Positions 20,039 to 39,939 of a stretch of DNA of 64,000 nucleotides are shown here, in pieces. The position numbers and the translations under genes were made by a program. The first letter of the stretch is position 1. The number at the start of each line of letters is the position of its first letter. The stretch spans positions 372,001 through 436,000 of the forward strand of contig NZ_CANNCF010000001.1 in the NCBI RefSeq assembly GCF_947503045.1, written 5' to 3'. The notes under the pieces were generated by a model. That model was given only the letters and a program-made list of their open reading frames with translations, had not been told where the DNA came from and did no database searches. This stretch comes from an uncultured Tateyamaria sp. (GTDB lineage: Bacteria; Pseudomonadota; Alphaproteobacteria; Rhodobacterales; Rhodobacteraceae).

Positions 20039-20109
20039 GAGCGCCTTCGTTCGACCTGAGGCGCAGTCATAATCGCGTCAGGGTGCACAGCGCAATGGCC
20101 GCGCGTCGA

Positions 20110-20721
20110 TCAGCCGTCGCTGAGAAGGAAATCGGCCATCCAGCCCACGGGGCCCCCGCCAACCGGGCGCAGTTGCACCCAACCGTCACCGGGGTTCTGC
20201 AGGATTTCGACCTTGTCGCCGCGCACCATGCGATTGACCACCGCATAATTCGTGCCCGGACCGCCGCGTACGTTCACGCTGTTGCCGGTGACCGCACGAA
20301 CGGCGAAGTCACCCGACGCGACCGGTGTGACCTGTTCGACCTCGTCATCTTCGCCAAAGGTAACGGGCGTGATCACAGCGCGATCCACGATCAGGCTCGG
20401 CAGGATGATGACGGGTTCTTCTTCGCTGACGGCCACCTCTTCTTCGATTGGTGGGGTCTCTTTGGCCAGCTGGGTGCGGAGGTTGGTCGGGCGCAACACG
20501 TCATTGACCGATGTGAGGCTCAGGGAGACGCGTGTGACGTTCTCAGGCGCAGGCTGTGGGAGGGGCGCCAGATCTGCGCGTTGCAACGGAGTGGTTTCGA
20601 CTTCGGCAGGCGCGTCGATCCGCGACAGACGCAGTTCTTCTGCATCGAAATCAGCGCCACCGCTCATCTCGTAAAAAACGAAGGCAAGAAACGCAAAACT
20701 GATCAATATGAAGCGCAACAT
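20110..20721 (-). CDS. SH3-domain envelope protein
   Basis: The 203-residue protein has an N-terminal hydrophobic anchor (LRFILISFAFLAFVFYEM). After a Pro/Glu-rich spacer comes a C-terminal bacterial SH3 (SH3_3-type) domain: AVTGNSVNVRGGPGTNYAVV, then VEILQNPGDGWVQL and VGWMADFLL. It is probably exported or membrane-anchored and may contact peptidoglycan. No catalytic domain is seen. It is the last gene before the divergent parC. Confidence 0.8.
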   Translation of the reverse strand: MLRFILISFAFLAFVFYEMSGGADFDAEELRLSRIDAPAEVETTPLQRADLAPLPQPAPENVTRVSLSLTSVNDVLRPTNLRTQLAKETPPIEEEVAVSEEEPVIILPSLIVDRAVITPVTFGEDDEVEQVTPVASGDFAVRAVTGNSVNVRGGPGTNYAVVNRMVRGDKVEILQNPGDGWVQLRPVGGGPVGWMADFLLSDG

Positions 20722-20953
20722 CGTTTGCGATCCCCCAAAAACTACACAATGCCGTCCCAGCAGCCCACCGACGACATGATTGATCCATAACAGGCGCGGC
20801 GATTCCCATCACTGGTAAAAAACCAAAGAATTTCCCCATCGCGGTGGGTTGTTGTGTCAGAGCAACTCCGGAAGGGGCCAAACGGTTCCCGAATTTCGCC
20901 AAATGGACGGGTCACAGCTTGTCGGAGCATGTTGCGCCCGCTACACAGCATAT

Positions 20954-23248
<2,295 letters not shown>

Positions 23249-23313
23249 CCCAACCGAGTCGGGCCTCTGCGCCTTGATCGGTAACAACCAAGACAGGACA
23301 CGAGGCAGACATC

Positions 23314-24516
23314 ATGAGCGCGCAAATTCAAGGACAGTATTTCGGCAAACGCGGACCCTTGTTCCGCCTCTACATCGTGACGGCCCTTTTGACCCTCGTG
23401 ACGCTGGGCATCTACCGGTTTTGGGCCAAGACCCGTATCCGCAAATACATCTGGTCGGCCACCACGGGGGACGGCGACAGTTTTGAATATACCGGCACCG
23501 GGCTTGAGAAATTCCTCGGCTTTCTGGTCGCCATTGTCATCCTTGCAATCTATCTGGGCATCGTGCAGATGGCGCTGTTTTTCTTTGGTCTGAACCTGTT
23601 TGTCGATCCGCAGACCCAAGGTCAGGAGCTGGCGCAGATCGGCGCCATCTATCTGACATTGCTGGCGGTTTTGCCACTAATGCTGTTCGCGCAGTACCGC
23701 GCGCGGCGCTACAAGATGGCGCGTTCACGCTGGCGGGGTATCCGCTTCGGGATGGAGAACGGAGCCTGGGGCTTTGCCGCCCGCGCACTGGGCTATTACC
23801 TTCTGAACGCAATCACGCTGGGCCTGCTCAATCCGCTGGCGACCTTCAAACTCGAGAAATACATGGCCGACCGCAGCTGGTACGGCGATGCGCAATTTGA
23901 ACAGACAGGGCGCTGGCAGGACCTTTATGCCGGGATGAAACACGTGTTCATCGCGCTTGCTATCATGATTGTCGGAGGGATTTTGGGTTTTGCGACCGGG
24001 TCCCCATTGCTGGCCGGGATCGCGATTTTTGTCGGTTACATCTGGTTCCTGATCGGGCTGCTTTACTACCGGGTCTATGCGTTCAACTATCTGACCGGGC
24101 ACAAGATTCTTGACGGACAAGTGACCTTCGAAGCAAAGGTCGAGACCGGTCGGGTCGCGTTTATTGTGATCGTTGGCACGATCATCATCGGCGTCCTGAT
24201 GGCCGTGATCTTTGGGGTGATGGGCTTTGTCTTTGCGTCCAGCATGGACGTCTTTATCGGCGGCGGATTGTCTCAACCGGGTGCCGCGCCAAGCGCACTT
24301 GCTTTGGTGACCAGCGCTGTCCTTTACGTTCTTGCGTTGCTGGTTGCGGGCGGGTTGAGCCTTGTCATCATCACCCAGCCGGTGATCGAACATGCGGTCA
24401 ACAACGTCTATGTGCACAACGCCGATCACTTGAACACCATTCAGCAGCGCGCTGCAGATGAGGGCGCGGATGCCGAAGGGTTCGCGGACGCGCTTGATGT
24501 GGGTGGTGCAATCTGA
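23314..24516 (+). CDS. YjgN family (DUF898) membrane protein
   Basis: The 400-residue integral membrane protein contains the DUF898 signatures TLGIYRFWAKTRIRKYIWS, ALGYYLLNAITLGLLNPLA and DRSWYGDAQFEQTGR, plus about six hydrophobic helices. Function in the family is unknown. Its stop overlaps the ATG of the M48 peptidase gene by one base (TGATG), which implies coupled translation and a shared role, perhaps envelope quality control. Confidence 0.9.
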   Translation: MSAQIQGQYFGKRGPLFRLYIVTALLTLVTLGIYRFWAKTRIRKYIWSATTGDGDSFEYTGTGLEKFLGFLVAIVILAIYLGIVQMALFFFGLNLFVDPQTQGQELAQIGAIYLTLLAVLPLMLFAQYRARRYKMARSRWRGIRFGMENGAWGFAARALGYYLLNAITLGLLNPLATFKLEKYMADRSWYGDAQFEQTGRWQDLYAGMKHVFIALAIMIVGGILGFATGSPLLAGIAIFVGYIWFLIGLLYYRVYAFNYLTGHKILDGQVTFEAKVETGRVAFIVIVGTIIIGVLMAVIFGVMGFVFASSMDVFIGGGLSQPGAAPSALALVTSAVLYVLALLVAGGLSLVIITQPVIEHAVNNVYVHNADHLNTIQQRAADEGADAEGFADALDVGGAI

Positions 24517-25685
24517 TGCAGGCGCAGGCGCGCTTTTTCGACGGTGAAAGTGGCCAGCGACTGGATGTCGATCTGGCCGTGGACACGGCGGCGGAAACGC
24601 TGCGCCTGACACATCCGGACTTGCCTATGGGGTCGCAATACTGGCCGCTGGATGCGATCCGGGCACTGGCCGACCATGCCCGCACCGATCAACTGGTGCT
24701 GAGCCTGCGCGCGGATGCGTCACTGGACAGCGCGTTGATCAGAACGGCGCGGCTGACGGTCGATGACGCCGACATGATCAGCATCCTCACCCGCCTGTGC
24801 CCTGATCTGCGCCGCCGCGACGTGGAGCGGGGCACCGGGCGCAAGGTCGTGACCCGCATCGGGTTGGCCGTCGGGGCCGTGGTGCTGATGATCTTTGTCA
24901 TCCTGCCCGCCATGGCCAATACGCTCGCCACCCTGATCCCGATCGAGCGCGAGGTCGCCTATGGCAAGACCGTCGTCAACCAGATGGAGCGTTTTCTGGG
25001 CGGCAAGCGGGTCGGGGGACTGGCCTGCACCAACCCGGCGGGGCGCGCAGCACTCGACAAGATGACGGACCGCCTGACCGAGGCGGGCGATCTGACCTAT
25101 GACCTCAATATCGCGGTGTTCGACCACAAGATGGTCAATGCCTTTGCCGCACCCGGCGGGCAGATCGTGATCATGCGCGGGCTCATTGATCGCGCCAAGA
25201 CCCCGGACGAGGTTGCCGCCGTCCTCGCCCATGAAATCGGCCATGTGGAGGCGCGTGATACCACCCGCAACGCCCTGCGCGCGGCAGGCTCGGCGGGCTC
25301 GGCGGGCTTGTTGGCGCTGGTTCTGGGTGATTTTGCCGGTGGCTCGGCGGTGGTTGTGGTGGCTGAATACACCCTCAACGCCTCCTACACCCGCGAGGCA
25401 GAGGCGGCGGCGGATGTGTTTGCCCTCAACATGCTCGACGCGTCGGAAACGGATGCCGAGGCGCTCGCCACCTTCTTTGACAGCCTCGACGGGATCGAGC
25501 GGGCCATGCCCGACCTGCCCGTCTATCTGTCCAGTCATCCCGAAACCATTGAGCGGGCCGAAGCCGCGCGCGAATTTGCCAAGGCACAGGGGCGCACCAG
25601 CCCGATCCTGAACGACGAGGACTGGGCGGCACTGCGCAATATTTGCAAGGACAGTCCCGAAAAGGACACGGCCGAGGACGGCTAG
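24516..25685 (+). CDS. M48 family metallopeptidase
   Basis: The 389-residue protein has a cytoplasmic or loop N-terminal domain, one clear membrane segment (GLAVGAVVLMIFVILPAMA) near residue 120, and a peptidase domain with the zinc motif HEIGH (in VLAHEIGHVEARDTT) and the downstream Glu in YTREAEAAADVFAL. This is the layout of membrane-linked M48 proteases such as the HtpX/BepA-Oma1 group. It is translationally coupled to the YjgN gene and overlaps the convergent P450 gene by 4 bp. Confidence 0.9.
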   Translation: MQAQARFFDGESGQRLDVDLAVDTAAETLRLTHPDLPMGSQYWPLDAIRALADHARTDQLVLSLRADASLDSALIRTARLTVDDADMISILTRLCPDLRRRDVERGTGRKVVTRIGLAVGAVVLMIFVILPAMANTLATLIPIEREVAYGKTVVNQMERFLGGKRVGGLACTNPAGRAALDKMTDRLTEAGDLTYDLNIAVFDHKMVNAFAAPGGQIVIMRGLIDRAKTPDEVAAVLAHEIGHVEARDTTRNALRAAGSAGSAGLLALVLGDFAGGSAVVVVAEYTLNASYTREAEAAADVFALNMLDASETDAEALATFFDSLDGIERAMPDLPVYLSSHPETIERAEAAREFAKAQGRTSPILNDEDWAALRNICKDSPEKDTAEDG

Positions 25686-27046
25686 GCAGGCTCTGCCATC
25701 AGCCACACGCCGCCCTCGGGGCGGACGGTCAGGATCATCACCGGGTCCGGATCGCGCCCCGGCACAGGGCGTACGCGAAACCGGGCCAGCATGGTGGCCA
25801 GAATGATCACCGCCTCTTGCAGCGCAAAGGAGGCCCCGATGCAGATGCGCGGCCCGTCCCCGAACGGCAGATAGGCATAGCGGTCAATGGCCTTGCGATC
25901 CGCAAAGCGGGAAGGGCGGAACGCATCCGGATCGTCCCAATGCAGGTGCGAGCGGTGCAGCGCATAGATCGGAAGCATTACCGTATCGCCCTTGCGCACC
26001 TCGCGCCCGCACAGCACATCATCGGCCATCGCCGTGCGCGACACGATCCCGGCAGGTGGATAAAGGCGCAGCGCCTCGTCGATGATCTGGCGGATCAGGG
26101 GCAGGTCTTCGACATCTGCGCCGGTGGCGGCGCGATCCCCCAACACGGATTGTGCCTCGGCGCGGGCGGCATCCTGCACGTCCTGGTCAAAGGCCACCAG
26201 ATACATCGACCACGCCAGTGTCAGCGCCGTCGTTTCGTGCCCGGCCACGATAAACGTCAGCAGGTTGTCGCGCATCTCGGACGTGTTCATGCGGCGCCCC
26301 GATTTCGGGTCCTCACCCGCCATCAGCAGATCGAGCAGGTCCGGCACACCTTCGGGACCACGCGCCGCGCGCTCATCAATGGCCCGGTCGGCCACAACCT
26401 TCATGTCGCGCATCGCCTGCCCTGACATCACCCGGCCCGGACGCGGCACCCAGTCGGGTGCACCCAGTACGTCAAACAGCGAAATCTTGCCCGCCTCGGA
26501 AATGTAGTCGTCTATGGCATGATGCACCGCATCGCGATCAAAGGTGTCGCCGCCGGAAAAGGTCACATCCGCGATCACGTCAAAGGTGGTGGTCACCATC
26601 TCGTCCAGAAAGTTGACGGCGCGCGGGCCTGCAGTGGCCACCCGTTCAGTGGCACGTTCGGCGGCGCGGGTCATGATCGGGGCGAGGTTCATCATGTTGC
26701 GATGGGTGAAAACCGGGGCCGCCGTGCGCCGTTGCCAGCGCCAATGCGCGCCTTCGGCGATGAACAGGGACTCGCCGATGGCGGGTTTCAACAGGTTCTT
26801 GGTCACCAGCGATTTGGGATAATCCTCCAGCCGATCCAGCAGGATGTGCCGGATTGCGCCCGGATCCATCACCATGTGCCAGCGCTTGCCGGTTCTGCCA
26901 GAAACGATGGGTTGGGAGGTGGCCGCTTCGGGGATGATGCGCAGCAGGTTGGTGCGTGCCACCGACAGGCTTTTCCAGAGGCCCCACACCTCGTTCACGA
27001 GGGCAGCGCGCACGGGCAGGCGCTGTGGCAGGGCGATTGCGGGCAT
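25682..27046 (-). CDS. Cytochrome P450
   Basis: The 454-residue protein has all main P450 landmarks: the I-helix oxygen-activation segment VAGHETTALTLAW, the K-helix pair EALR with LYPP, and the haem-binding loop FGDGPRICIGASFAL with the thiolate Cys. The length and soluble N-terminus suggest a cytosolic bacterial P450, with similarity in style to CYP4/CYP102-like enzymes. No ferredoxin or reductase gene is adjacent. The ATG at 27044-27046 is preceded by AAGGAGG. The substrate is unknown. Confidence 0.93.
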   Translation of the reverse strand: MPAIALPQRLPVRAALVNEVWGLWKSLSVARTNLLRIIPEAATSQPIVSGRTGKRWHMVMDPGAIRHILLDRLEDYPKSLVTKNLLKPAIGESLFIAEGAHWRWQRRTAAPVFTHRNMMNLAPIMTRAAERATERVATAGPRAVNFLDEMVTTTFDVIADVTFSGGDTFDRDAVHHAIDDYISEAGKISLFDVLGAPDWVPRPGRVMSGQAMRDMKVVADRAIDERAARGPEGVPDLLDLLMAGEDPKSGRRMNTSEMRDNLLTFIVAGHETTALTLAWSMYLVAFDQDVQDAARAEAQSVLGDRAATGADVEDLPLIRQIIDEALRLYPPAGIVSRTAMADDVLCGREVRKGDTVMLPIYALHRSHLHWDDPDAFRPSRFADRKAIDRYAYLPFGDGPRICIGASFALQEAVIILATMLARFRVRPVPGRDPDPVMILTVRPEGGVWLMAEPA

Positions 27047-27158
27047 GATGGCCTCCTTGGCTCTGGGTAACATATATGTACGCCTTCAGCGCTGGCAATT
27101 GCGTCCACGCGGCGGCTACGGTATCGAATTGCAACAGTAATGTCGGGAGACAACGGTG

Positions 27159-27743
27159 ATGGTGCGAGCAGTTCTGGGCGTGATGATGATGGTCCTTCTG
27201 GCGGCCTGCAGCAGCAGCGCCGATCTTGAGGACACCCCGGTTCCGCTGGGCGATTTCCGGCTGGAGCACAACATTGTCGTGGCCTCTAAGGCGCAGCGCG
27301 GCCCGCTGAGCCGCCCGGCCACCGAAGAGCAATTGCAAGAAGCGGTGCGCAGCGCCATGGCCGAACGGTTTGGCCGGTATCAGGGCCCCAGCCGCTATCA
27401 TTTCGGCGTGTCGGTCGAGGGCTACGTGCTGGCCCAGCCGGGCATTCCGCTGGTCTTGGCCCCCAAATCCGCCCTGATCCTTCTGGTCACCGTCTATGAT
27501 GATGCGGCGGGCAAAAAGCTGAACGAAAAGCCCGAACAGATCACTGTGCTTGAAACTTTCGGCACCGCCCCGATCATCGGCACCGGCTATACGATGACAG
27601 CCGAAGAACAGCTCAAGGAACTGAGCCAGAACGCCGCCAAGGCGGTCGAACGCTTTCTTGTGCGCCAGCAAAAGGAAGAAGGCTGGTTCACACCGGACGT
27701 CGCAACAACCTTGGACGAGACACAAGACCCCGCAACCAACTGA
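27159..27743 (+). CDS. Conserved lipoprotein, unknown function
   Basis: I do not recognise a family for this 194-residue protein. It starts with a signal peptide ending in a lipobox (LLAACSS). The mature part, including VPLGDFRLEHNIVV and YHFGVSVEGYVLAQPGIP, looks like a single globular domain followed by a helical C-terminus (EEQLKELSQNAAKAVERFLV). GGGAGA lies 8 bp before the ATG; a GTG one codon earlier is also possible. A second lipoprotein gene follows after 21 bp, so they are likely co-expressed and may work together in the envelope. Confidence 0.65.
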   Translation: MVRAVLGVMMMVLLAACSSSADLEDTPVPLGDFRLEHNIVVASKAQRGPLSRPATEEQLQEAVRSAMAERFGRYQGPSRYHFGVSVEGYVLAQPGIPLVLAPKSALILLVTVYDDAAGKKLNEKPEQITVLETFGTAPIIGTGYTMTAEEQLKELSQNAAKAVERFLVRQQKEEGWFTPDVATTLDETQDPATN

Positions 27744-27764
27744 TCAAACCAAAAGGATGACCCG

Positions 27765-28343
27765 ATGCCTGTCGCTGCGACTGAAACGAATGAAGTTGGC
27801 ACAGGCGGCGGCCTGATCCATCTGGGACGCGTGATGCTGGCCGCTCTGGCCTTTGTCGGCCTTGCCGCCTGCGATGTCCCCTCGATCCGCACATCGGGCG
27901 ATGTGTCGGCCCTGAACGTGCAATCCGTCGAAGTGGACACATCCCAAATGGCAGTGGCCGTTGAGGGGCGCGCCTTTGCCGTGACCCGGGAAAAGCTGGA
28001 TGCGGATCTGACGGCAGCGATCACCGCAGCCCTCGCCTCCAAAAGCGATCCGGAGGGGCGGCCCGTACGCGTCGATATCACGATGGAGCAGTTGCGCCTT
28101 GCCCCGCCGATTGAACGGGTCGCTGCGGGGACCAGTGCCGCCACGGGCGTGGTCTCGGTGATCGAAGTAGGAACCGGGGCTGTGGTGGTGCCGCCGACCC
28201 GCGTGACTGGAAACTCCGAAAGCATACGTGCGGCGTGGATCCTGGGGCTGGCAACCACACAGACCGTCGACAAGGACTATGGGGGCACCGTGAACGGTTT
28301 TGCCGCCACCACCCGCGCAGCTCTGTTTGGCCCTGACGAATAG
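27765..28343 (+). CDS. Conserved lipoprotein, unknown function
   Basis: The 192-residue product has about 23 residues before a hydrophobic stretch ending in GLAACDVPS, a lipobox. The mature part contains VEVDTSQMAVAVEGRAFAVT and a Gly/Val-rich C-terminus (GNSESIRAAWILGLATTQTV). The N-terminal extension before the signal may mean that the true start is the GTG-coded Val in GRVMLAALAF rather than the ATG at 27765, which is preceded by AAAGGA. It pairs with the lipoprotein gene 21 bp upstream, and both proteins share a strand-rich, stress-lipoprotein-like style. I cannot assign a role. Confidence 0.6.
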   Translation: MPVAATETNEVGTGGGLIHLGRVMLAALAFVGLAACDVPSIRTSGDVSALNVQSVEVDTSQMAVAVEGRAFAVTREKLDADLTAAITAALASKSDPEGRPVRVDITMEQLRLAPPIERVAAGTSAATGVVSVIEVGTGAVVVPPTRVTGNSESIRAAWILGLATTQTVDKDYGGTVNGFAATTRAALFGPDE

Positions 28344-28432
28344 CGCGGCCCGTGCGCACCCCGACATAAGCCCATGCCGGTTCTGCCACACAGATCGCAC
28401 CGCGCCGCAGTCCCCGTGCTGCCCAATGACGC

Positions 28433-28461
28433 TTGATTTTCCCGGTCAGGCGCAATAAATG
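28433..28461 (+). promoter_or_regulatory. Candidate sigma-70 promoter for tuf1
   Basis: TTGATT at 28433-28438 is followed after 17 bp by TAAATG at 28456-28461. It lies 60 bp upstream of tuf1. The match to consensus is moderate and the assignment is inferential. Confidence 0.35.
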
Positions 28462-28520
28462 CGCCGCGGAGTAAAACCGGGTTCTCATCCCGCACAGACC
28501 ACAGAAGGGCGTCCTTAAAG

Positions 28521-29696
<1,176 letters not shown>

Positions 29697-29704
29697 GTTG
29701 CGCG

Positions 29705-29727
29705 GTAGGGCGGGGTTTCACCCCGCC
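29705..29727 (+). repeat. REP-like palindrome after tuf1
   Basis: GTAG at 29705-29708 is directly followed by the hairpin GGCGGGGTTTCACCCCGCC (8-bp stem, 3-nt loop). Identical to the element after tuf2 at 56945-56967. Confidence 0.75.
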
Positions 29728-29744
29728 GTTTCGATGAAGTATTA

Positions 29745-29776
29745 AGGCGCTGCCTGCATTGGCAGCGCCTGTTTTG
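29745..29776 (+). terminator. Terminator after tuf1
   Basis: AGGCGCTGCC at 29745-29754 pairs with GGCAGCGCCT at 29761-29770 and is followed by GTTTTGTT. Confidence 0.85.
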
Positions 29777-29823
29777 TTGGACAAGGATGTATTCCGGCCA
29801 GAAAACCGGGATAATCGGGGCAA

Positions 29824-30219
29824 ATGGATCGGTTTTTCGGAATCAAGCTACTGAACGATGACACGACGCCGATGGACGCTGTCGTGCGTATGCTTCGCGA
29901 GACGTTGGACTTATCCGAAGCGGTTGCGTTCGAGCGCATGTTGCGTGTCCATCAGAACGGTCAAGACACCGTCTTTATGGGCACGGTAGACCAGCAAGAC
30001 CTGATCCTGAGAAAGATCGAGGCCTGGACGCGGTCCAACGCATGCCCGGTTGCTTACCGTGGCACCGGACCCCATTCACATCAGGACTATTCGGCGTGGC
30101 TGGACGATCACAAAAACGAAGCCGCAGCACCAGACGCTTCGTCGTCAACAGCGTTGATTGTCGTTGTCGCAATCATCTTATTGGTCTTTGCTGGTGTTGC
30201 CGTGCCGGTGTTCTGGTGA
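29824..30219 (+). CDS. Membrane-anchored ClpS-like protein
   Basis: The 131-residue protein starts directly with a ClpS-like domain: LLNDDTTPMDAVVRMLRETL at residues 9-28, MLRVHQNG at 39-46 and KIEAWTRSNACPVAY near residues 72-86. These correspond to the E. coli ClpS segments VNDDYTPMEF, LMLAVHYQG and VNKYARENEHPLL. The residues that line the N-degron pocket in ClpS (the Asn-Asp-Asp, Thr and Met of NDD-x-TPM, and the Met and His of ML-x-VH) are all present. The long N-terminal tail that engages ClpA is missing. A hydrophilic linker of about 20 residues leads to one C-terminal membrane helix (LIVVVAIILLVFAGVAVPVF). Classical ClpS is soluble, so this would be a membrane-tethered recognition domain. 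It sits between tuf1 and tRNA-Trp. Confidence 0.75.
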   Translation: MDRFFGIKLLNDDTTPMDAVVRMLRETLDLSEAVAFERMLRVHQNGQDTVFMGTVDQQDLILRKIEAWTRSNACPVAYRGTGPHSHQDYSAWLDDHKNEAAAPDASSSTALIVVVAIILLVFAGVAVPVFW

Positions 30220-30291
30220 GTATTGTGGGATTTCCGAGGGCAATAGGACTTGCCATCAAGAAACGGTGAGAGTAATCAGCACACCGGCCTT

Positions 30292-30367
30292 AGGGGTATA
30301 GCTCAGCTGGTAGAGCGACGGTCTCCAAAACCGTAGGTCTCGGGTTCGAACCCTGATGCCCCTGCCA
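30292..30367 (+). tRNA. tRNA-Trp (anticodon CCA)
   Basis: A complete cloverleaf: acceptor AGGGGTA/TGCCCCT, D-arm GCTC...GAGC, anticodon arm ACGGT-CTCCAAA-ACCGT with anticodon CCA, T-arm TCGGG-TTCGAAC-CCTGA (one G-T pair), and an encoded GCCA end. It lies upstream of secE and nusG, a frequent bacterial arrangement. Confidence 0.97.
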
Positions 30368-30687
30368 AATCTCCAGATTTCGACTGATAGCACCGCGATG
30401 CTGCACTGCGCGAATCGTGCACGGCGGGACGGCGCGATGGCCTGCATTCGGCGGAATCTCGCCTTGGTTGTGCCCTTGTTTCGTGCAGAACGCGGACAAT
30501 TTCCAGACGGACCCGAATATTGTCGTCGCCCCGTCGACAGTGCCCCATTCTCGCCACAGTTTTGACACGCGACCCGCACGGTTGAGGCGCATCTTTGCCT
30601 CATATGGGCGCGCACCCAGTTGGTGATGCGCACAAGGCCCAAGGCCCCGCGGGGGCCAGAGTATTTGAAGAGTTAAGGACGCAGCTG

Positions 30688-31425
30688 ATGAAATATGAAC
30701 CTATTCCCGGTCAGCCCCAATACGCCACCGAAGAAGAAACCATGTCCGTCATCCGCGCGGTCCTTATCGAAGACGCCGCGCCCGCTCCGACCCGCAAGGA
30801 GGCCCGCGCCGAACGCCGTGCCGCCCAAGCCCGTGGCGCTGAGGCGGATGCTGAAACACCGGTGAAGGAAGACATTCAAGGCTTCAAGGCCTTTGTCGAA
30901 CGCACGCTTGAAGGCAATCCACGCCGGCGCGCGGACGACCTGCCCGTTTTGCAGGACCCTGCACCGGTTGCCGCCAAACCGGTCCGTAAGCGCCGGACCA
31001 ACCACGTCGCGGGTCTGGTGGCGCGGGTTGTGCGCCCCGTGCGCGATTTTCGCCCAACCACGCGGCACCTTGCGCTGGCCAGCCTTGCCCTGTTGGTTGT
31101 TCTGCGCCCCCATTGGTTTGTCATAAGCGGCGTTCTGATGGCCGCGCTCGCCATTGCCGGATTCCTGCTCATCGGATCGGACCGGATCTGGCGCGGCGTT
31201 ATGGCTTACCTCACCCGGGTTGAGGGGCGCGACCCCGAACGTGCCGCGCAGTTTCGGGCCCGCCTTGATCGGTTTGCCTGCCGCTGGGACGGGTTTCTCG
31301 ACATGTTCCCGGACGGGATGGTCGACAGTCTCTATATGCCCGACTTTCAGGACATTCAGAATGGCGATGCAGCCCACATGGACGCGATGAGCGAACGGCT
31401 AGCGCGTATGGTACACGACACCTGA
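30688..31425 (+). CDS. Conserved two-TM membrane protein, unknown function
   Basis: This 245-residue protein is not recognised. The N-terminal third is charged and Ala/Arg-rich (APTRKEARAERRAAQARG). The middle has a short Pro-rich linker, then a pair of membrane segments (HLALASLALLVVLR and VISGVLMAALAIAGFLLIG), and a C-terminal cytosolic region DPERAAQFRARLDRFACRWD that ends in YMPDFQDIQNGDAAHMD. I chose the ATG at 30688 (MKYEPIPGQPQ); the frame upstream overlaps the tRNA downstream region. It lies between tRNA-Trp and secE on the same strand. Confidence 0.65.
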   Translation: MKYEPIPGQPQYATEEETMSVIRAVLIEDAAPAPTRKEARAERRAAQARGAEADAETPVKEDIQGFKAFVERTLEGNPRRRADDLPVLQDPAPVAAKPVRKRRTNHVAGLVARVVRPVRDFRPTTRHLALASLALLVVLRPHWFVISGVLMAALAIAGFLLIGSDRIWRGVMAYLTRVEGRDPERAAQFRARLDRFACRWDGFLDMFPDGMVDSLYMPDFQDIQNGDAAHMDAMSERLARMVHDT

Positions 31426-31452
31426 TCAATCGCCCTATATGGGTCGACACCG

Positions 31453-31476
31453 GGCGGGATGCGCTGCAATCCCGCC
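31453..31476. terminator. Stem-loop before secE
   Basis: GGCGGGAT pairs with ATCCCGCC around an 8-nt loop. No run of T follows, so termination is only possible, not clear. Confidence 0.45.
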
Positions 31477-31540
31477 TTGAATTCGCCCATGCGCGCCGTT
31501 ATGTGCCTTTCATCCGCAGACAGGGACACGAAATCACGCC

Positions 31541-31738
31541 ATGGCCACAACCAACCCGCTTCAGTTCATCCAGCAAGTCCGTTCGGAAGTGTCCAAGGTC
31601 GTTTGGCCGACCCGGCGCGAGGTGCTGCTGACAACCGTAATGGTTTTCATCCTGGCTGCGCTGACTGCGGTCTTCTTTGCGATCGTCGATATCCTGATCC
31701 GTGGTGGGCTTGAAATGGTGCTGACCTATTTCGGTTGA
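31541..31738 (+). CDS. secE: Preprotein translocase subunit SecE
   Basis: The 65-residue single-helix protein has the SecE signature EVSKVVWPTRREVLLTTVMV followed by the membrane span ILAALTAVFFAIVDILI. It stabilises the SecYEG channel. It is followed by nusG after 175 bp, as in most bacteria. The interval holds a small inverted repeat (TGCAC ... GTGCA) but no clear terminator. Confidence 0.95.
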   Translation: MATTNPLQFIQQVRSEVSKVVWPTRREVLLTTVMVFILAALTAVFFAIVDILIRGGLEMVLTYFG

Positions 31739-31913
31739 CAGGCCGTTTAGGGACCCGCCTCTTGCACTTTGAAAATGTGCAGAGTATCCCCCAATCCTGA
31801 CCTAAGCTGAGGCGCGCGGCGATTCGAAGCCCCGCGCCGATTTTCATTCGGGTCGGCGCGTGTTCAGACACGTGACCTAAGAAACGACATATCGGGCAAG
31901 GGACCAGACGCAC

Positions 31914-32447
31914 ATGGCAAAACGGTGGTATTCGGTCAGCGTTCTTTCGAACTTTGAAAAGAAGATCGCCGAGACGATCCGGACTTCGGTTGCAGAACAC
32001 AACCTTGAGGACGAAATCGACGAAGTGCTGGTTCCGACCGAGGAAGTCATCGAAGTGCGTCGCGGCAAGAAAGTCACGACCGAGCGTCGCTTTATGCCCG
32101 GATACGTGCTGGTCCACATGGAAATGTCCGATCAGGGCTATCACCTGATCAACTCGATCAACCGCGTCACCGGGTTTCTTGGTCCGCAAGGTCGCCCGAT
32201 GCCGATGCGCGATGCCGAGGTGAACCAGATTCTCAACCGCGTTCAGGAAGGCGAGGACAGCCCACGCACCCTGATCCATTTCGAGATCGGCGAGAAGGTC
32301 AAGGTCAACGACGGCCCGTTCGAGGATTTCGATGGCATGGTCGAGGAAGTGGACGAAGACAACCAGCGCCTCAAGGTCACCGTGTCGATCTTTGGCCGCG
32401 AAACGCCAGTCGAACTGGAATTCACGCAGGTCAACAAACAGACCTGA
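31914..32447 (+). CDS. nusG: Transcription termination/antitermination factor NusG
   Basis: The 177-residue protein has an NGN domain (KRWYSVSVLSNFEKKIAETI, then FMPGYVLVHMEM) and a C-terminal KOW domain (FEIGEKVKVNDGPFEDFDGM). It binds RNA polymerase and couples it to ribosomes or Rho. A clear terminator follows at 32475, separating nusG from the OmpA gene. Confidence 0.97.
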   Translation: MAKRWYSVSVLSNFEKKIAETIRTSVAEHNLEDEIDEVLVPTEEVIEVRRGKKVTTERRFMPGYVLVHMEMSDQGYHLINSINRVTGFLGPQGRPMPMRDAEVNQILNRVQEGEDSPRTLIHFEIGEKVKVNDGPFEDFDGMVEEVDEDNQRLKVTVSIFGRETPVELEFTQVNKQT

Positions 32448-32474
32448 CCACCCGACACAACGCATTCAATACAC

Positions 32475-32507
32475 AGGCCGGGACCCGCAGGGGCGCCCGG
32501 CCTTTTT
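32475..32507 (+). terminator. Terminator after nusG
   Basis: AGGCCGGG at 32475-32482 pairs with CCCGGCCT at 32496-32503 and is followed by TTTT. Confidence 0.85.
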
Positions 32508-32766
32508 GCATTTATGACCCAGAGTTGAGAATCGGCGCGCCCATCAGACAGCCTATTCGAACAGGGCAGGCGGGGCATCCGCGATCCCGCTCTGAATCCG
32601 GGCTGTCGGGTCTCAATTGCCGAGATTTGCGTCACGGCAGTCCATTATGTCGGGGATAACTGGGCAATCGCGGTTGACCCTGTTTGCGGATTCACGCCAA
32701 ATTGTATGGTGAACCACAGCATTTAGTGAACTCACACAGTTTGAATGGCGTATCTTGGGGGACGCA
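32508..32766. other. Intergenic region nusG-OmpA gene
   Basis: With the terminator this is a 319-bp gap. I see no coding potential with support. The last 100 bp are AT-richer and should carry the promoter of the OmpA-domain gene, whose ATG at 32767 is preceded by a G-run. Confidence 0.5.
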
Positions 32767-33936
32767 ATGTATTTGAAAAGCATCAAGGAGAGTTTGCCTT
32801 GGCTCGTGCCGTCGGCCGCGATTGTCTTTGCAGGAACCGGGTTCCTGATGAATGCCAACAGTCCCAAGACCCCATCTGACGCGGATCAGGCAACGATGTC
32901 TGCGGCCACAACCGAACAGCAGATTGCCTCGCTGCAGGCCGCGCTGAATGCGGCATTGCGCGCCAATGCCGAAGAAGAAATCGTGGCCCGTCAGGCGACC
33001 GGCACAGATGCACTGTCGGCCATGCCGACACGTGCACAGCCAGATGTCGCCGCAACAGCACCCGTTGCCACCCCCGTACCAGAACCGGCCGACGACCGCG
33101 TCGCCGCGTTGACCATGCCCCATGCGGCGGCCAAGCAGTTCGCCTCGGGAGAGGCCGCAATTGAGGATGCGGCGCGTTGCATGGATGACCTGCGCAGCCT
33201 GACAACACAGGCGGTTGTCTACTTTCCGAATGGTGGCATCGACGCGGACGAAACTGGGGTCGAACAGGGCCGCCTGATTGGCCTTGTGGCACAGTCCTGT
33301 GAAGGCGTGCGGATCAAGGTCGAAGGCCACACGGACGCAACGGGCGATCCGGCGACCAACCTCGCCCTCAGCAAATTGCGCGCCGAACAGGTGATCGAAC
33401 GGATCGCCGCGTCTGGCATCAACACCAGTATGTTCTTTGCGGAAGGTGCCGGGCAACAGCGCCCCTCGGGTGTGGTGGGCCCGCAATCCACGGCCTTTTA
33501 TGACCGCCGCGTCGAATTTTCGGTGGTCAATCCGATCACCCGCGTTGCGGCCCGCGCGCCAACGGCGATCAGACCCTGGGCCAATGCGCCCTGCGTTGCG
33601 GCCTTGGAACAGGCGACGGCGAACGCGTATTTCTACTACGGCCCACGGTCGGTGTCGCTGCCCTCGCAGGATGTTGAGGCGGTACATGACATTGCAACGC
33701 TCGCCGCCAATTGCCCGCATGCGCGCCTGCGCATTGTCGGTCACCACTCCGGCGACGCGTCTGCGCGCGAAGACGTGCAAACCGGCATGCTGCGCGCCCG
33801 GGCCCTGATGGCCATGCTGGTGGGCCGTGGCATCGCGCCGGAGCAGATCATCGTCTCGGCCCCATCTCGTTCGGTGAGTGACCCGACCCGTCCCGATGGG
33901 CGTGTGAGTTTCGACGTTCTGCTGGAAGAAGGCTAA
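32767..33936 (+). CDS. OmpA-family protein with tandem OmpA-like domains
   Basis: The 389-residue protein has an N-terminal membrane anchor or signal (LPWLVPSAAIVFAGTGFLM) and an Ala/Thr/Pro-rich spacer. A first OmpA domain follows at about residues 130-260: YFPNGGIDADE, then IKVEGHTDATGDPATNLALS and RRVEFSV. A second copy follows at about 275-385: YFYYGPRSVSLPSQDVEAVH, then LRIVGHHSGDASAREDV and GRVSFDVLLEEG. The second lacks the strict peptidoglycan-binding HTD motif (HHSGD instead). It should bind the cell wall. The gene stands alone between nusG and rplK. Confidence 0.85.
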   Translation: MYLKSIKESLPWLVPSAAIVFAGTGFLMNANSPKTPSDADQATMSAATTEQQIASLQAALNAALRANAEEEIVARQATGTDALSAMPTRAQPDVAATAPVATPVPEPADDRVAALTMPHAAAKQFASGEAAIEDAARCMDDLRSLTTQAVVYFPNGGIDADETGVEQGRLIGLVAQSCEGVRIKVEGHTDATGDPATNLALSKLRAEQVIERIAASGINTSMFFAEGAGQQRPSGVVGPQSTAFYDRRVEFSVVNPITRVAARAPTAIRPWANAPCVAALEQATANAYFYYGPRSVSLPSQDVEAVHDIATLAANCPHARLRIVGHHSGDASAREDVQTGMLRARALMAMLVGRGIAPEQIIVSAPSRSVSDPTRPDGRVSFDVLLEEG

Positions 33937-33988
33937 GCCCGGCACTCCGAAAACGGGCAATTCCCCCATATTTTTACTTGCTACTGCA

Positions 33989-34016
33989 ACAGAGGCGCTG
34001 TATCCGGCGCCTCTGT
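33989..34016 (+). promoter_or_regulatory. Strong stem-loop in rplK leader
   Basis: ACAGAGGCGC and GCGCCTCTGT form a perfect 10-bp stem with an 8-nt loop, 112 bp before rplK. No T-tract follows. The position fits either the end of the OmpA transcript or a leader structure for autoregulation of rplKA by L1; I cannot decide from sequence. Confidence 0.45.
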
Positions 34017-34128
34017 CACGTTAGGTGACATCCCATGTGGGAGGCGAGGGCAACGCGTTGTCCAGACCGGACCACATCAACCATATCTCGGCGTCGCGAC
34101 GTGCGGGAGTTGAAAAGGAGATTGGCAC

Positions 34129-34554
34129 ATGGCCAAGAAACTCGTCGGGACGATGAAGCTGCAAGTTAAAGCAGGTCAGGCAAACCCGTCCCCACCCGTC
34201 GGCCCCGCACTGGGTCAACGCGGCATCAACATCATGGAATTCTGCAAGGCGTTCAACGCCAAGACCGCAGATATGGAGCCCGGCGCGCCGTGCCCGACCG
34301 TGATCACGTATTATCAGGACAAATCCTTCTCGATGGATATCAAGACGCCACCAGCGTCCTACTATCTCAAGAAGGCCGCCAAGGTGAAATCCGGCGCCAA
34401 GACGCCGTCGCGCGAAACCATCGGCACCGTCAGTGTCGCGCAGGTGCGTGAAATCGCCGAAGCGAAAATGGCCGATCTGAACGCCAACGACGTTGAAGGC
34501 GCAATGAAGATCATCCTGGGCTCTGCCCGTTCCATGGGCATCGAGGTGAAGTAA
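34129..34554 (+). CDS. rplK: 50S ribosomal protein L11
   Basis: The 141-residue protein shows the L11 signature: [20 protein letters not shown] at the N-terminus, and the C-terminal rRNA-binding domain [20 protein letters not shown]. It forms the GTPase-associated centre with 23S rRNA. A single base separates it from rplA, so the two form one operon. Confidence 0.98.
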
Positions 34555-34555
34555 G

Positions 34556-35254
34556 ATGGCAAAATACGGAAAACGCACAACCGCCGCCCGCGAAGCATTC
34601 GCAGGCAAATCCGATGTCACCGTCGAAGAGGCCGTGGCGCTGGTCAAAGGCAACGCCAAGGCCAAGTTCGACGAAACCATCGAAATCTCGATGAACCTCG
34701 GTGTTGACCCCCGCCACGCGGACCAGATGGTCCGCGGCGTTGTTGGTCTGCCCAACGGCACAGGAAAGGACGTGCGCGTCGCTGTCTTCGCCCGTGGCCC
34801 CAAGGCTGAAGAGGCTGAAAAGGCCGGTGCGGACATCGTCGGCGCAGAGGACCTGATGGAAACCATTCAGGGCGGCAAGATTGATTTTGACCGCTGCATC
34901 GCCACACCCGACATGATGCCCATCGTGGGTCGTCTCGGTAAGGTGCTGGGCCCACGCAACCTGATGCCCAACCCCAAGGTCGGCACCGTGACCATGGACG
35001 TCGAGACTGCGGTCAAGGCGGCCAAGGGCGGCGAAGTCCAGTTCAAAGTGGAAAAAGCCGGCGTGGTTCATGCCGGCATCGGCAAGGCCTCCTTTGACGA
35101 AGCCAAGCTGATCGAAAACGTCCGCGCCTTTGTCGGTGCGGTCGCCAAGGCCAAGCCAGCGGGTTCAAAAGGGACTTACATGAAGAAAGTCTCGCTCAGC
35201 TCGACCATGGGCCCCGGTGTCAGCGTCAACGTCGACAACGCCGTCGCCGAATAG
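34556..35254 (+). CDS. rplA: 50S ribosomal protein L1
   Basis: The 232-residue protein has the L1 motifs [20 protein letters not shown], then [16 protein letters not shown] and [12 protein letters not shown]. It forms the L1 stalk and in many bacteria represses its own operon by binding the leader RNA. A strong terminator follows at 35281. Confidence 0.98.
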
Positions 35255-35280
35255 GCGAACCTCTCTTTTTCGAAGACCGG

Positions 35281-35312
35281 AAAACCGGGCTGTTCACGCA
35301 GCCCGGTTTTTT
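35281..35312 (+). terminator. Terminator after rplA
   Basis: AAAACCGGGCTG pairs perfectly with CAGCCCGGTTTT over a 6-nt loop, then TT. The A and T flanks make it bidirectional in form. Confidence 0.92.
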
Positions 35313-35393
35313 CATGGCCGAAATGCATATTTTCACCCGCGTGCCAAATTTCATGTACTGTCGATCAACAATAATGATGGGGAGATCAACGTG

Positions 35394-37094
35394 ATGGCCG
35401 ATGCCAAGCCGTGGGAGCAGTATTTTTCAGATGAGGCCAAGGCGCCAGGCGCGGGCACGCCATCGGCCGTGACCATTCCGGCGATGCTGGACGAGGTTGT
35501 CGCGAAATTTGGCGCCAAACCTGCGATGACAACGATCCTGCCCACCGGTGCGGACACCACCGTCAGCTATTCCGAACTCAAGGATCATGCCGCGGACTTT
35601 GCCACCTACCTGCGCGAGGATCTGAAGCTGGGAACCGGGGACACGGTGGCCATCATGTCCCCCAACTGCATCGGTTTCTGTGTGGCCTCCCTTGGCATCG
35701 CACTGGCTGGATGTATCGGCACCAACGTCAATCCGCTCTACACTCCCAACGAGCTGGAACATCAGCTCAACGACAGCAAGGCCAAGGCCATCGTCATCAT
35801 CGACCTGTTCGGCGACAAGCTGGACAAGGTGGTCGCCAACACCGGGGTGAAACACGTGATCACCCTGTCCATCGTCGATTTCTTTCCGACGCTGAAAAAG
35901 ATGTTGCTGGGCTTTGTGCTCAAGCGCGTGCGCAAAGTCATTCCGACGATGGCGACCGCGCATACGCGGCTAACCGACGCGCTGGCGATGGGCCGCGCGC
36001 ACACGGGACGCGATGTGGCGGCCTATACCAAGGGAGTCACGGGCAGCTCCGTCGCACTTTATCAGTACACAAGCGGCACGACGGGGCGCAGCAAGGGGGC
36101 GGGACTCACCCATCAGGCGATCCTGACCAATGCCGAACAGGGCCGGTTGATGACATCCGCGGTGGTGCGGGAAGGGAAAGAGGTCGCGCTGGTGGCCCTG
36201 CCGCTCTACCACATCACTGCCTTCACCCTGCTGTTCATCTCCGGGCTCAAGGTCGGCGGGCACGGCATCCTCGCCCCGAGCCCGCGCCCGCCCTCCAATC
36301 TCAAGGCGGCGTTTGAAAAGTACGAGATCACCTGGTTCACCGGCATCAACACCCTGTTCGCGGGCCTGATGGCCGAGCCGTGGTTCGACCGGAAACTGTT
36401 CCAGCACATCCGCTTCTGCGGATCGGGCGGGGCGGCGCAGCAGACCGGGGTGGCACAGAAATGGCAGGAGGCGACGGGGGTGGAGATCTTGCAGGGCTAT
36501 GGGATGACGGAAGTGTCCGGCATCCTCACCCTCAACCCGCCGGGGGAAAACCGGCTGGGCAAGGTCGGCGTGCCGGTGCCGGGGGCCGAAGTGCGGATCG
36601 TGGATGACGCGGGGCAGGATGTGCCGCACGGGGAGCCGGGCGAAGTGATCGCGCGCACGCCGTCGCTGATGCAGGCCTATCTCGACAACCCGGACGCGAC
36701 CGAGGATGTGCTGAAAGACGGGTGGTACTATTCGGGCGACATCGGGGTGATGGACGCGGATGGGTTCATCGAGATTGTGGACCGCAAGAAGGACATGATC
36801 CTGGTGTCGGGCTTCAATGTGGCGCCGAACGAGATCGAGGACGTGATCTCGACCTTGCCGGGGGTCGTGCAGGTGGGGGTCGTGGGGATCGCGGACGAAA
36901 AGACGGGGGAGGTTCCGGTGGCTTTCGTGGTGCGGTCCGATGACAGCCTGACGGAGGAGGCGGTGGTGGCGGCCTGCCGGGAGGCGCTGACCAACTACAA
37001 GATTCCGCGGCAGGTGAGGTTCGTGGAGGACGTCCCGGTGACCCTCTCGGGCAAGGTGCTGCGGCGGCAACTGCGGGAGGATCACTTTGGGTGA
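35394..37094 (+). CDS. fadD: Long-chain fatty acid-CoA ligase (AMP-forming)
   Basis: The 566-residue enzyme of the ANL superfamily has the P-loop-like motif YTSGTTGRSKGAGLTH, the A5 segment GYGMTEVSG, YYSGDIGVMDADGFIEIVDR (A8 hinge) and the C-terminal catalytic lysine region SGKVLRRQLR. It activates fatty acids to acyl-CoA through an acyl-adenylate. I chose the ATG at 35394 because GGGGAG precedes it at 9 bp. The downstream half is especially G-rich on the coding strand. The substrate chain length is not certain. Confidence 0.88.
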   Translation: MADAKPWEQYFSDEAKAPGAGTPSAVTIPAMLDEVVAKFGAKPAMTTILPTGADTTVSYSELKDHAADFATYLREDLKLGTGDTVAIMSPNCIGFCVASLGIALAGCIGTNVNPLYTPNELEHQLNDSKAKAIVIIDLFGDKLDKVVANTGVKHVITLSIVDFFPTLKKMLLGFVLKRVRKVIPTMATAHTRLTDALAMGRAHTGRDVAAYTKGVTGSSVALYQYTSGTTGRSKGAGLTHQAILTNAEQGRLMTSAVVREGKEVALVALPLYHITAFTLLFISGLKVGGHGILAPSPRPPSNLKAAFEKYEITWFTGINTLFAGLMAEPWFDRKLFQHIRFCGSGGAAQQTGVAQKWQEATGVEILQGYGMTEVSGILTLNPPGENRLGKVGVPVPGAEVRIVDDAGQDVPHGEPGEVIARTPSLMQAYLDNPDATEDVLKDGWYYSGDIGVMDADGFIEIVDRKKDMILVSGFNVAPNEIEDVISTLPGVVQVGVVGIADEKTGEVPVAFVVRSDDSLTEEAVVAACREALTNYKIPRQVRFVEDVPVTLSGKVLRRQLREDHFG

Positions 37095-37146
37095 GGGATT
37101 GGGGTGTCCCACGCTGGGACATTTTTGCGCCATAGGAAAATCAAGG

Positions 37147-37178
37147 GGTTACAGAGGCGGTTTTACCCTTTTGTAACC
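37147..37178 (+). other. Inverted repeat after fadD
   Basis: GGTTACA at 37147-37153 and TGTAACC at 37172-37178 are inverted, with an 18-nt interval holding TTTTACCC. It may be the end of the fadD transcript, but a clear T-tract is absent. Confidence 0.35.
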
Positions 37179-37243
37179 TTTGGGCCCCGGAGAGGGGGGA
37201 CGCGGAGGTCGGTGCCCCTTGGGTTTTTGGGGTGAAGGGTGTG

Positions 37244-37265
37244 ATGGGCAGATTGCCCATCCTAC
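37244..37265 (-). repeat. REP-like palindrome variant before the AT-rich gene
   Basis: ATGGGCAGATTGCCCAT at 37244-37260 is a 7-bp stem with a 3-nt loop. Followed by CCTAC, it reads GTAG-G-hairpin on the minus strand, matching the other GTAG elements in layout but with a different stem sequence. Confidence 0.6.
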
Positions 37266-37318
37266 GTGGTAATAGCGGACGGAATCAACGAAGTAGAATA
37301 GGGCATACGAGGCAAGAA

Positions 37319-38941
37319 ATGAAAAACAGCGAAAGCTTGGCTGAATTAGTAGTAGAAAATAGTGTTTCAGCTCCCGCACCACTAGATCCTGCCATCGCAT
37401 CAATTAATCTGGCGACAAGATCAAATCGATTGACAGAGGGATATGATCTTTCCGTTTCGGCCTTTTTTGGTAGTGAGCGTATCGAACTGACCGGTGGAGA
37501 TTTCGGAGTCAGTGTACAAATCTCGATTGAGCGTGCCCAAATTGACTTGGAGTTTGTTAGATGCCGAGCTTCGCTTGTGGACGATCCGACGTCACAGTTG
37601 TCTGACGAACGATTAGTTGAAGAGCGTACAACAATGCGTCGCGACAAATCGAGCAGCGCAGGTTTTCTGCTAGGAGCTTCGTCCAAGGCTGATGCGCAGC
37701 TAGAGGCTGGTTTCGACGTAAAGGGGCAAGTTGCAGGGTCCGGCGCGTATGAGAGAAATGTTGTACGCAACAGAAAGAACTGGCAACGTCTAAATGCCCA
37801 AACAATTCTCATCGGAACAATTCCAGGAGACTTAGATGGCATGGAACTCGATAATTTTTTAGGTTGGCGGGTATTTCCGGAAGTTACGGACGAACCCTCG
37901 GGAGTAATCGGCACCTTAAAAGTAAGAGAAGCATGGATAAACTTTATTAATGTCAAAAACACATCATTTAAAGGCCGTATCGGCCATAAGGCCAGAAAAC
38001 TATTTGAGTCAAACGATCAAAACCGAAAGAGAATGTTTGCACTTTTACTTCGGCATTTGTCGACAACGGGGTTGAGCACAAGGTCGTCACGTCCAGATGA
38101 AGCGGTCTTTGCGATCTTTCCATTTGTAGTTCGACCGGAAATAGACAAAGCCGTTGCCGTTAACGCGCCCGCGTCGTCTGGCCGTGTCCAACTAGAAAGT
38201 GAAAAATTAGAAGCGTTCTTGGTATCACCACCAGGCACTGAGGAAGAAACACTTGTGTCACTTGGCGTGTCACATGACTTAATTCGAGAAAATACTCGTA
38301 AAGCTAAGAGCAAGGGAAAAAGCCAAGGTCGTTTTCTAGGTTACACATCGCCGGTAGTTTGCGCGAGGGCATACTCACAACTTGTTAAAAGACAAAGAGT
38401 GGACGAAAAAGATTGGTCTGGCATAGCAAACAATCGGGTTCTAAGGGATTTGATAAACTTGGACTTGGTTAAGAAAATTGACGATTCTATTGTACCGGTT
38501 GAAGACTCTGTATCAGACGCAGATGCGATGTTTAGGCACTCAATTGCCCGTTGTGACACAGTGCAGTTAGCCCGAGGAATGCTAGTCGAGAACCCAAGTG
38601 TTTCTAGTACAGAAGTCGCAGAGATGGTGGATACAAAGTTCGGGAAGAGCTACAGCACCCACGGAACGAAGGTTCGCGTAGGTCAAGCGCTCAAACGATG
38701 GGCACGTTGGGTAGAGCCACATCTGATCGATCCAAAGGGGGGCGCAAAGTCAGACGCACTTCTCGAGGTGGCCAAGAGCAAGGTGGCCCAAGTTGGAGCG
38801 CGCACCTACGCAACTCCAAAAAATATTGCGATTGCTAAGGCGGGGTATGCTGCGGGAGATTCCGGCAAGGTAATTGCAGAGAGAATTGGTATGAGTTACG
38901 CGACACTGAAGCGTTGGAAAGACAGTGGAAAATTGGATTAG
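37319..38941 (+). CDS. AT-rich unknown protein with C-terminal DNA-binding-like domains
   Basis: I do not recognise this 540-residue protein. It is visibly AT-richer than all neighbours and uses codons such as AGA, TTA and ATA, so it was probably acquired. The N-terminal 200 residues look beta-rich (YDLSVSAFFGSERIELTGGD, ASLVDDPTSQLS, ILIGTIPGDLDGMELDNFLG). The middle is basic (RENTRKAKSKGKSQGRFLGY). Residues about 413-469 look like a winged helix (LARGMLVENPSVSSTEVAEM then VDTKFGKSYSTHG and QALKRWARW). The last 35 residues form a resolvase/Homeodomain-like HTH (KVIAERIGMSYATLKRWK). No catalytic motif is obvious. The ATG at 37319 is preceded by GAGGCAAG. It sits alone between fadD and rplJ, flanked by a REP-like hairpin, a setting typical of insertion beside conserved genes; a phage-defence role is possible but unproven. 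Confidence 0.6.
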   Translation: MKNSESLAELVVENSVSAPAPLDPAIASINLATRSNRLTEGYDLSVSAFFGSERIELTGGDFGVSVQISIERAQIDLEFVRCRASLVDDPTSQLSDERLVEERTTMRRDKSSSAGFLLGASSKADAQLEAGFDVKGQVAGSGAYERNVVRNRKNWQRLNAQTILIGTIPGDLDGMELDNFLGWRVFPEVTDEPSGVIGTLKVREAWINFINVKNTSFKGRIGHKARKLFESNDQNRKRMFALLLRHLSTTGLSTRSSRPDEAVFAIFPFVVRPEIDKAVAVNAPASSGRVQLESEKLEAFLVSPPGTEEETLVSLGVSHDLIRENTRKAKSKGKSQGRFLGYTSPVVCARAYSQLVKRQRVDEKDWSGIANNRVLRDLINLDLVKKIDDSIVPVEDSVSDADAMFRHSIARCDTVQLARGMLVENPSVSSTEVAEMVDTKFGKSYSTHGTKVRVGQALKRWARWVEPHLIDPKGGAKSDALLEVAKSKVAQVGARTYATPKNIAIAKAGYAAGDSGKVIAERIGMSYATLKRWKDSGKLD

Positions 38942-39351
38942 CCTGTAGCTTTCGGAAAAAATCGCAAATTATGCTTTGGCGCACAATCTCGCGACAGAAC
39001 CCATATCGCCATCCCGCCGGGACGGGCTGGCGATGGCCCGGCGCCTTCGGCTTGATTCCGGGCGAGTTGGCGCCAACCTTCCCCCTTCACAAACCCCCCC
39101 AAACCCTCTAACTCCCACCCAAGGTCGCTCCCGTTGATTCGGGCGCGTCCTACTTTCGTCCGAGACGGTGGGTGAGGCGTACCTCATAAATCCTGCCCGA
39201 GGCGGGAACAGACCTGTTTCTCCAGAAGCTCGCCGTTTTGAGCCTCTGGCGGTCTTGGACCCCCTGACTTTCGAGGACCAAACCGCCGGAGTGATCCGGT
39301 GCTACTAGAGCCGGGGACCCCGCACAGGGCCCCCACAAATGGAGTGAAACT
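38942..39351 (+). other. rplJ leader region
   Basis: This 410-bp interval has no supported ORF. A strong hairpin stands at 39005-39034 (ATCGCCA pairs TGGCGAT, inner CCCG pairs CGGG) near the boundary of the AT-rich insert. The last 200 bp, with several GC-rich pairing segments close to rplJ, have the position and style of the L10-binding leader that regulates rplJL in other bacteria; that role is inferred. Confidence 0.5.
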
Positions 39352-39867: not shown

Positions 39868-39939
39868 GCAAACGTCTGAGCGGCGTGTGAGAATTGCACA
39901 CGTTGGAACACACATATCGAAACGGAAAGAGCTGATAAA

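Follow-up and report, generated by a model that had tools for sequence, protein, structure and literature searches.

ClpS is a soluble adaptor in which the reading of protein N-termini is coupled to a tail-dependent delivery. According to the available parts of the relevant reports, the N-terminal extension of E. coli ClpS enters the channel of ClpA, and blocking of this extension inhibits delivery (PMC9663308); Glu79, Glu82 and Lys84 of the same protein contact ClpA, and the pocket of Caulobacter ClpS is formed by I45, L46, N47, D48, T51, M53, V56, M75, V78, H79 and L112 (PMC12493166). In the present work we have analysed a 64,000-nucleotide stretch of DNA (the window) from an uncultured Tateyamaria sp. 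(assembly GCF_947503045.1, contig NZ_CANNCF010000001.1, positions 372,001 to 436,000 of the forward strand), in which an open reading frame (ORF) encodes a ClpS-like protein of 131 amino acids (aa). An earlier note on this DNA had proposed that the protein is a ClpS-like N-degron-recognition domain fused to a membrane helix. It differs from the soluble ClpS adaptors of ClpAP (PF02617) in lacking the extension, in having Asp, Asp and Ile in place of Glu79, Glu82 and Lys84, and in the addition of a linker and a hydrophobic helix.

The alphaproteobacterial ClpS2 proteins (e.g. that of A. tumefaciens, 4yjm) provide a second comparison. Thirteen genomes of the family harbour a second, ClpS2-like gene (loci L114-L126), and in contrast to the 131-aa protein all of these second copies end with the ClpS domain, with no anchor after it. 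Further, the Lys84 position, Ile in the 131-aa protein, is Lys in 12 of the 13, and the full AE-x-K is present in 9 of the 13, whereas the Met gatekeeper position is occupied by Arg in 12 of the 13. A third group of interest comprises single-transmembrane proteins with a helix-turn-helix (HTH) domain and a ClpS/L7-L12-type domain, which adjoin Skillet-2 lipocones (PMC12419801, from the part available). These proteins, the nearest described case in the literature examined, resemble it in having one membrane helix and, on the cytoplasmic side, a domain of the ClpS/L12 type, but the HTH domain and the other genomic context set them apart from the 131-aa protein, as judged by their description. 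The statement in the earlier note that known ClpS proteins are soluble is therefore mostly right, except for these proteins described in another context. No paper on a membrane-anchored bacterial ClpS was found by title or start of abstract, among the matches listed, in open-licence PMC full texts, and the available parts of PMC7159879, PMC1779556, PMC6274998 and PMC7966870 contain no such case. On the basis of the sequence, what is known here are the domain and the fold, and what appears to be new is that one protein lacks the tail used for delivery, has altered contacts to ClpA and carries a predicted anchor at its C-terminus.

Domain, pocket and termini of the 131-aa protein

The features of the gene are as follows (coordinates in the window, strand, description).

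29824..30219, +, ORF of the predicted tail-anchored ClpS-like protein, 131 aa, stop included (ATG start, open frame)
29824..30072, +, ClpS domain, residues 1-83
29812..29814, +, in-frame TAA upstream, which excludes an N-terminal extension (sequence)
29854..29874, +, NDDTTPM, residues 11-17, predicted N-degron pocket; N11, D12, T15 and M17 correspond to Caulobacter N47, D48, T51 and M53 (sequence; pocket list from PMC12493166)
29938..29952, +, MLRVH, residues 39-43, predicted pocket; M39, V42 and H43 correspond to Caulobacter M75, V78 and H79 (sequence; pocket list from PMC12493166)
29989..30006, +, D56, D59 and I61, at the positions of the ClpA-contacting Glu79, Glu82 and Lys84 of E. coli ClpS (alignment; contacts from PMC12493166)
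30073..30144, +, acidic linker with a predicted helix at residues 86-100 (composition and model)
30148..30216, +, hydrophobic C-terminal stretch, residues 109-131, predicted membrane anchor up to the stop codon (Kyte-Doolittle value 3.18; permutations)

ClpS (PF02617) was the sole family above cutoff in a Pfam search with the 131-aa protein (residues 7-75, E 2.1e-13, 50.3 bits against a cutoff of 23), and the ClpS-like domain proposed earlier is thus borne out. Of the ten families that matched in NCBIfam, nine are ClpS equivalog models, and all were below their cutoffs (the best reached 34.5 bits versus 149). By sequence the protein is thus homologous to ClpS, yet, because none of the equivalog models reached its cutoff, it is not a standard ClpS; its identity to the ordinary ClpS of the same genome is 30%. 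Among PDB sequences retrieved at E values up to 10, ClpS or ClpS2 accounted for 10 of 12 (E 1.1e-4 to 0.053), and the three alignments that were shown are all without gaps. The predicted model has a ClpS fold matching over residues 1-83, so that the span of residues 9-86 suggested earlier was roughly right, and it superposes without gaps on peptide-bound ClpS, which bears only indirectly on the earlier claim that the NDD, Met and His residues lie in one pocket. The C-terminal domain of ribosomal L7/L12 was also considered, but its profile and fold match was not closer than that of ClpS. In the phylogenetic tree the branch of the 131-aa protein is very long (9.07 versus a median end branch of 0.13), and it has no supported placement, with ClpS2 or elsewhere.

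In a gap-free register, the residues corresponding in the same order to the Caulobacter pocket (pocket list from a source available in part) are L9, L10, N11, D12, T15, M17, V20, M39, V42, H43 and V76, of which nine are identical and two conservative; the NDD-x-TPM and ML-x-VH residues are kept, as had been noted before. When 20 of the canonical ClpS proteins fetched from the family serve as the reference, the consensus is matched at 10 of 11 pocket positions versus 15 of 65 other positions (Fisher 3e-5), and where only positions at least 90% conserved in these 20 proteins are considered, it is kept at 9 of 10 pocket positions versus 10 of 44 others (1.4e-4).

Unlike the pocket, the parts of ClpS that deal with ClpA are altered. 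Only three codons (SGQ) are open between the in-frame TAA and the ATG, and the N-terminal extension is for this reason truly absent rather than lost by a miscalled start, in agreement with the earlier observation that the ClpA-engaging tail is gone. In view of what is known for E. coli ClpS, the lack of this extension implies that the usual delivery of substrates to ClpAP should not occur. The ClpA-contact triad is also not kept: Lys84 is lost (Ile), and Glu79 and Glu82 are conservatively replaced by Asp, at positions where Glu, Glu and Lys are present in 93-98% of the 45 other ClpS rows of a wider alignment. Ala81, located beside these contacts and invariant in the 45 rows, is Gln in the 131-aa protein, and the canonical consensus is retained at only 3 of 33 positions in residues 47-79.

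At the other end, the Kyte-Doolittle maximum (19-residue window) is 3.18 at residues 111-129 of 131, a value that 20000 permutations of its residues never reached. By its sequence the protein thus has a single hydrophobic helix at its extreme C-terminus, as expected of a tail anchor, and of the transmembrane helix described in the earlier note the hydrophobic helix is upheld, its membrane location being predicted. Residues 81-108 have a net charge of -4 and no charges follow the helix. Membrane insertion and topology are predictions from these properties, and the simplest topology would be a ClpS domain folded in the cytosol followed by a tail anchor.

Distribution and the relative in Roseovarius

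A second tail-anchored ClpS-like protein, again judged by its sequence, is encoded by Roseovarius sp. MMSF_3359 (G364), where it is found at the same locus with a similar length and the same domain order. Its identity to the 131-aa protein is 29% over 75 residues and 27% over the full alignment; it has the C-terminal helix and the same Asp, Asp and Ile at the ClpA contacts, and Leu at the Ala81 position. As this locus again holds the domain in the same architecture in another genus, the 131-aa ORF is confirmed as a real feature and is more than a chance reading frame. Just upstream of the Roseovarius gene lies a 99-aa hydrophobic ORF (L192:2410-2709, minus strand), a possible partner, for which a family search gave nothing better than E 0.1.

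Proteins of this kind are rare in the genomes searched. Within the genus, 20 genomes were searched, its own among them, and the 131-aa ORF was found in none of the other 19. A single-sequence search of 248 family genomes gave matches in 244, and apart from the protein itself no listed row exceeded 32.2 bits. At E values up to 1e-7, similar searches of genomes from the order (390), the class (385) and the phylum (398), which are overlapping sets, retrieved its own genome only, at a threshold that would miss relatives as distant as the Roseovarius protein. A scan of genome contigs with a sequence pattern yielded 376 stretches, none of them confirmed, and none of the matches on plasmids (12 records) and phages (3 records) reached a coverage of 80%; the Roseovarius protein had no pattern match on viral contigs and one weak plasmid record (E 4). 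A hidden Markov search of 262 loci, inclusive of those at tuf-trnW, at E values up to 1 recovered ClpS/ClpS2 loci and then only the two tail-anchored proteins. When a profile built from these two proteins was run against 268 genomes of the order, the two founders scored 241-251 bits, as expected by construction, and the next rows started at 46.4 bits; the alignments of the latter fall within the ClpS domain, as would those of ordinary ClpS, although the rows were not all checked one by one. No third tail-anchored member is present among the profile rows listed for these genomes, where diverged members could lie lower. Two profile matches were seen in 9 of the 268 genomes, viz. those of the two founders, three with a known ClpS2 (G235, G066 and G050), and G298, G418, G065 and G447. 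In the genus of MMSF_3359, one of 10 sampled genomes has a second ClpS match by this profile.

The ClpS genes found on 18 viral contigs (L053-L070) do not encode a hydrophobic helix in any case (maximum Kyte-Doolittle value 1.27, with the start of one gene cut off). The peptide NDDTTPMD is common to the 131-aa protein and all 18 viral ORFs; however, it should not be interpreted as evidence for a viral origin, because this peptide was among the search patterns of the scan itself, and the tree does not place the protein.

The genome and the tuf-tRNA-Trp gap

The genome encodes an ordinary ClpS (C1:283130-283369, 122.2 bits), ClpA (C1:728297-730516, 1108.7 bits against a cutoff of 993.15) and the transferase Aat (C6:50296-50799, 222.6 bits). 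The separate soluble ClpS and ClpA for which the earlier note advised a check are therefore both present, and these components of the ClpAP N-degron pathway are in place independently of the 131-aa gene. The stretches flanking the ordinary clpS showed no clpA on inspection by eye, clpA being located elsewhere. The 131-aa gene itself is situated between these features:

28521..29696, +, tuf (EF-Tu), left neighbour and conserved flank (named by eye)
29745..29770, +, terminator-like hairpin after tuf (2 such sites in the region versus a mean of 1.2 in shuffles)
30292..30367, +, tRNA-Trp (CCA), right neighbour and conserved flank

In five Tateyamaria relatives, those with the tuf-trnW gap inside the fetched stretch, the gap contains no long ORF (two cases), a gene on the opposite strand (two) or an apparent remnant of that gene (one). 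Of 219 loci, 151 contain trnW, and tuf is directly upstream of it in 54, at least 4 of which are second copies of the same stretch; across the 54 the gap ranges from 122 to 2842 bases, with cargo that varies by genus. The cargo named by eye (window 29697-30291; loci L071-L090, L192 and L215-L332) includes DUF892-like, hexapeptide transferase-like, CorA-like and acyltransferase-like genes. The gap thus looks like a site for accessory genes between conserved flanks. The codon adaptation of the 131-aa gene is 0.60, below 14 of 15 reference genes of the window that were scored against themselves (0.67-0.83; the remaining one 0.44), which fits a recent arrival but is no proof of it. Elsewhere in the window, a 569-aa ORF (37232-38941) has a third-position GC of 0.42, neighbours with higher GC and a codon adaptation of 0.44 (on 37340-38938), and looks foreign; its sole family match is a sub-cutoff HTH_23.

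Possible roles of the protein

The reading that we favour, with a probability of roughly 45%, is that the 131-aa protein is a membrane-tethered N-degron binder, either a competitor of soluble ClpS or a means of keeping substrates at the membrane. According to this reading, an extra, fast-evolving ClpS homologue would have turned into a tail-anchored membrane protein, whose ClpS domain most likely lies on the cytosolic side and recognises Phe, Leu, Tyr or Trp at the N-terminus of proteins or of fragments. The captured proteins would be held at the inner membrane and, because the extension on which ClpA pulls is lacking, would probably not be passed to ClpAP in the known way. If there is no such delivery, it follows that the protein may be a site of capture or a sink at the membrane, in competition with the cell's soluble ClpS, or may serve another membrane machine. 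A broader proposal, which we consider doubtful, is that the two proteins are the first members of a bacterial family of membrane N-recognins, uncoupled from ClpAP and anchored at their C-termini, which are shuttled among roseobacters via the tuf-tRNA-Trp gap and read N-termini at the membrane, for capture or for a membrane protease in place of ClpAP.

Several observations weigh against the reading as a tethered N-degron binder. When positions at least 90% conserved across all 45 rows are considered, the consensus is kept at 6 of 7 pocket positions versus 6 of 13 others, a non-significant difference (p 0.11), and this comparison is the sober control, since the pocket residues are the slowest-evolving in any ClpS. 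The Roseovarius pocket is equal to that of the 131-aa protein at only 6 of 11 positions (it differs at Leu9, Leu10, Asp12, Met17 and Met39, with Asp12 to Asn, Met17 to Gly and Met39 to Ala among the changes), and for this reason, as far as the sequences go, the two proteins do not have a strict N-degron pocket in common. Further, the Roseovarius protein is without the extension only if the likely ATG is chosen, its frame being open further upstream. In the AlphaFold model residues 105-123 are helical, but the confidence in the C-terminal helix is low (block means of 56-68 for the predicted local distance difference test), and the alignments used for the modelling were built from ClpS proteins, which favours a ClpS fold. 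A promoter scan at the gene gave 0 sites. Lastly, Leptospira ClpS1, which has Val at the Lys84 position, binds ClpA with a Kd of 0.44 uM versus 0.32 uM for ClpS2 and inhibits the ClpA ATPase, according to the part of the source available (PMC12493166); the Lys84 change alone is thus no proof of lost docking and need not abolish it.

The Leptospira example also bears on an unlikely alternative, viz. that the main partner of the protein is not N-degrons but the N-domain of ClpA, on which it would dock to recruit ClpAP to the membrane or to block other adaptors. The genome encodes its own ClpA, and two of the three ClpA contacts remain acidic (Asp56 and Asp59); however, the replacement of Lys84 by Ile in both members, the changes of the invariant Ala81 in each of them and the poor retention of consensus residues in residues 47-79 are contrary to such docking. 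No more probable is a reuse of the ClpS fold for another membrane ligand or partner (e.g. a membrane protease), with the pocket of the 131-aa protein as a historical remnant. The partly eroded Roseovarius pocket and the very long branch in the tree are in accordance with such a change of function, whereas the identity to Caulobacter ClpS at 9 of 11 pocket residues, in a protein with 30% identity to its own ClpS, is not.

It is improbable that the gene is a functionless, decaying duplicate of ClpS or a chance in-frame extension. Its absence from the rest of the genus (19 genomes) and its low codon adaptation would be consistent with decay, but the ORF is intact, its domain order, locus and similar length recur in a second genus, and, as an ordinary ClpS is present, it is not the sole copy in decay. 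Most improbable of all is that the gene is of mobile origin and serves host takeover or defence by sequestering or protecting N-degron proteins, since, despite its sporadic occurrence in the variable tuf-trnW gap and the carriage of ClpS by phages and viral contigs (PMC7824862, from the part available), no PADLOC match was obtained, none of the 18 viral ClpS ORFs has the hydrophobic helix, and inspection by eye of the ORF list for 20000-40000 revealed no integrase or phage gene.

If the reading as a membrane-tethered N-degron binder is correct, a naturally occurring ClpS with the pocket kept, the tail dropped and an anchor gained would split recognition from degradation. A tailless, self-anchored ClpS would be the natural counterpart of laboratory tail deletions, and it would make testable the use of N-degrons by bacteria for localisation or sequestration besides destruction.
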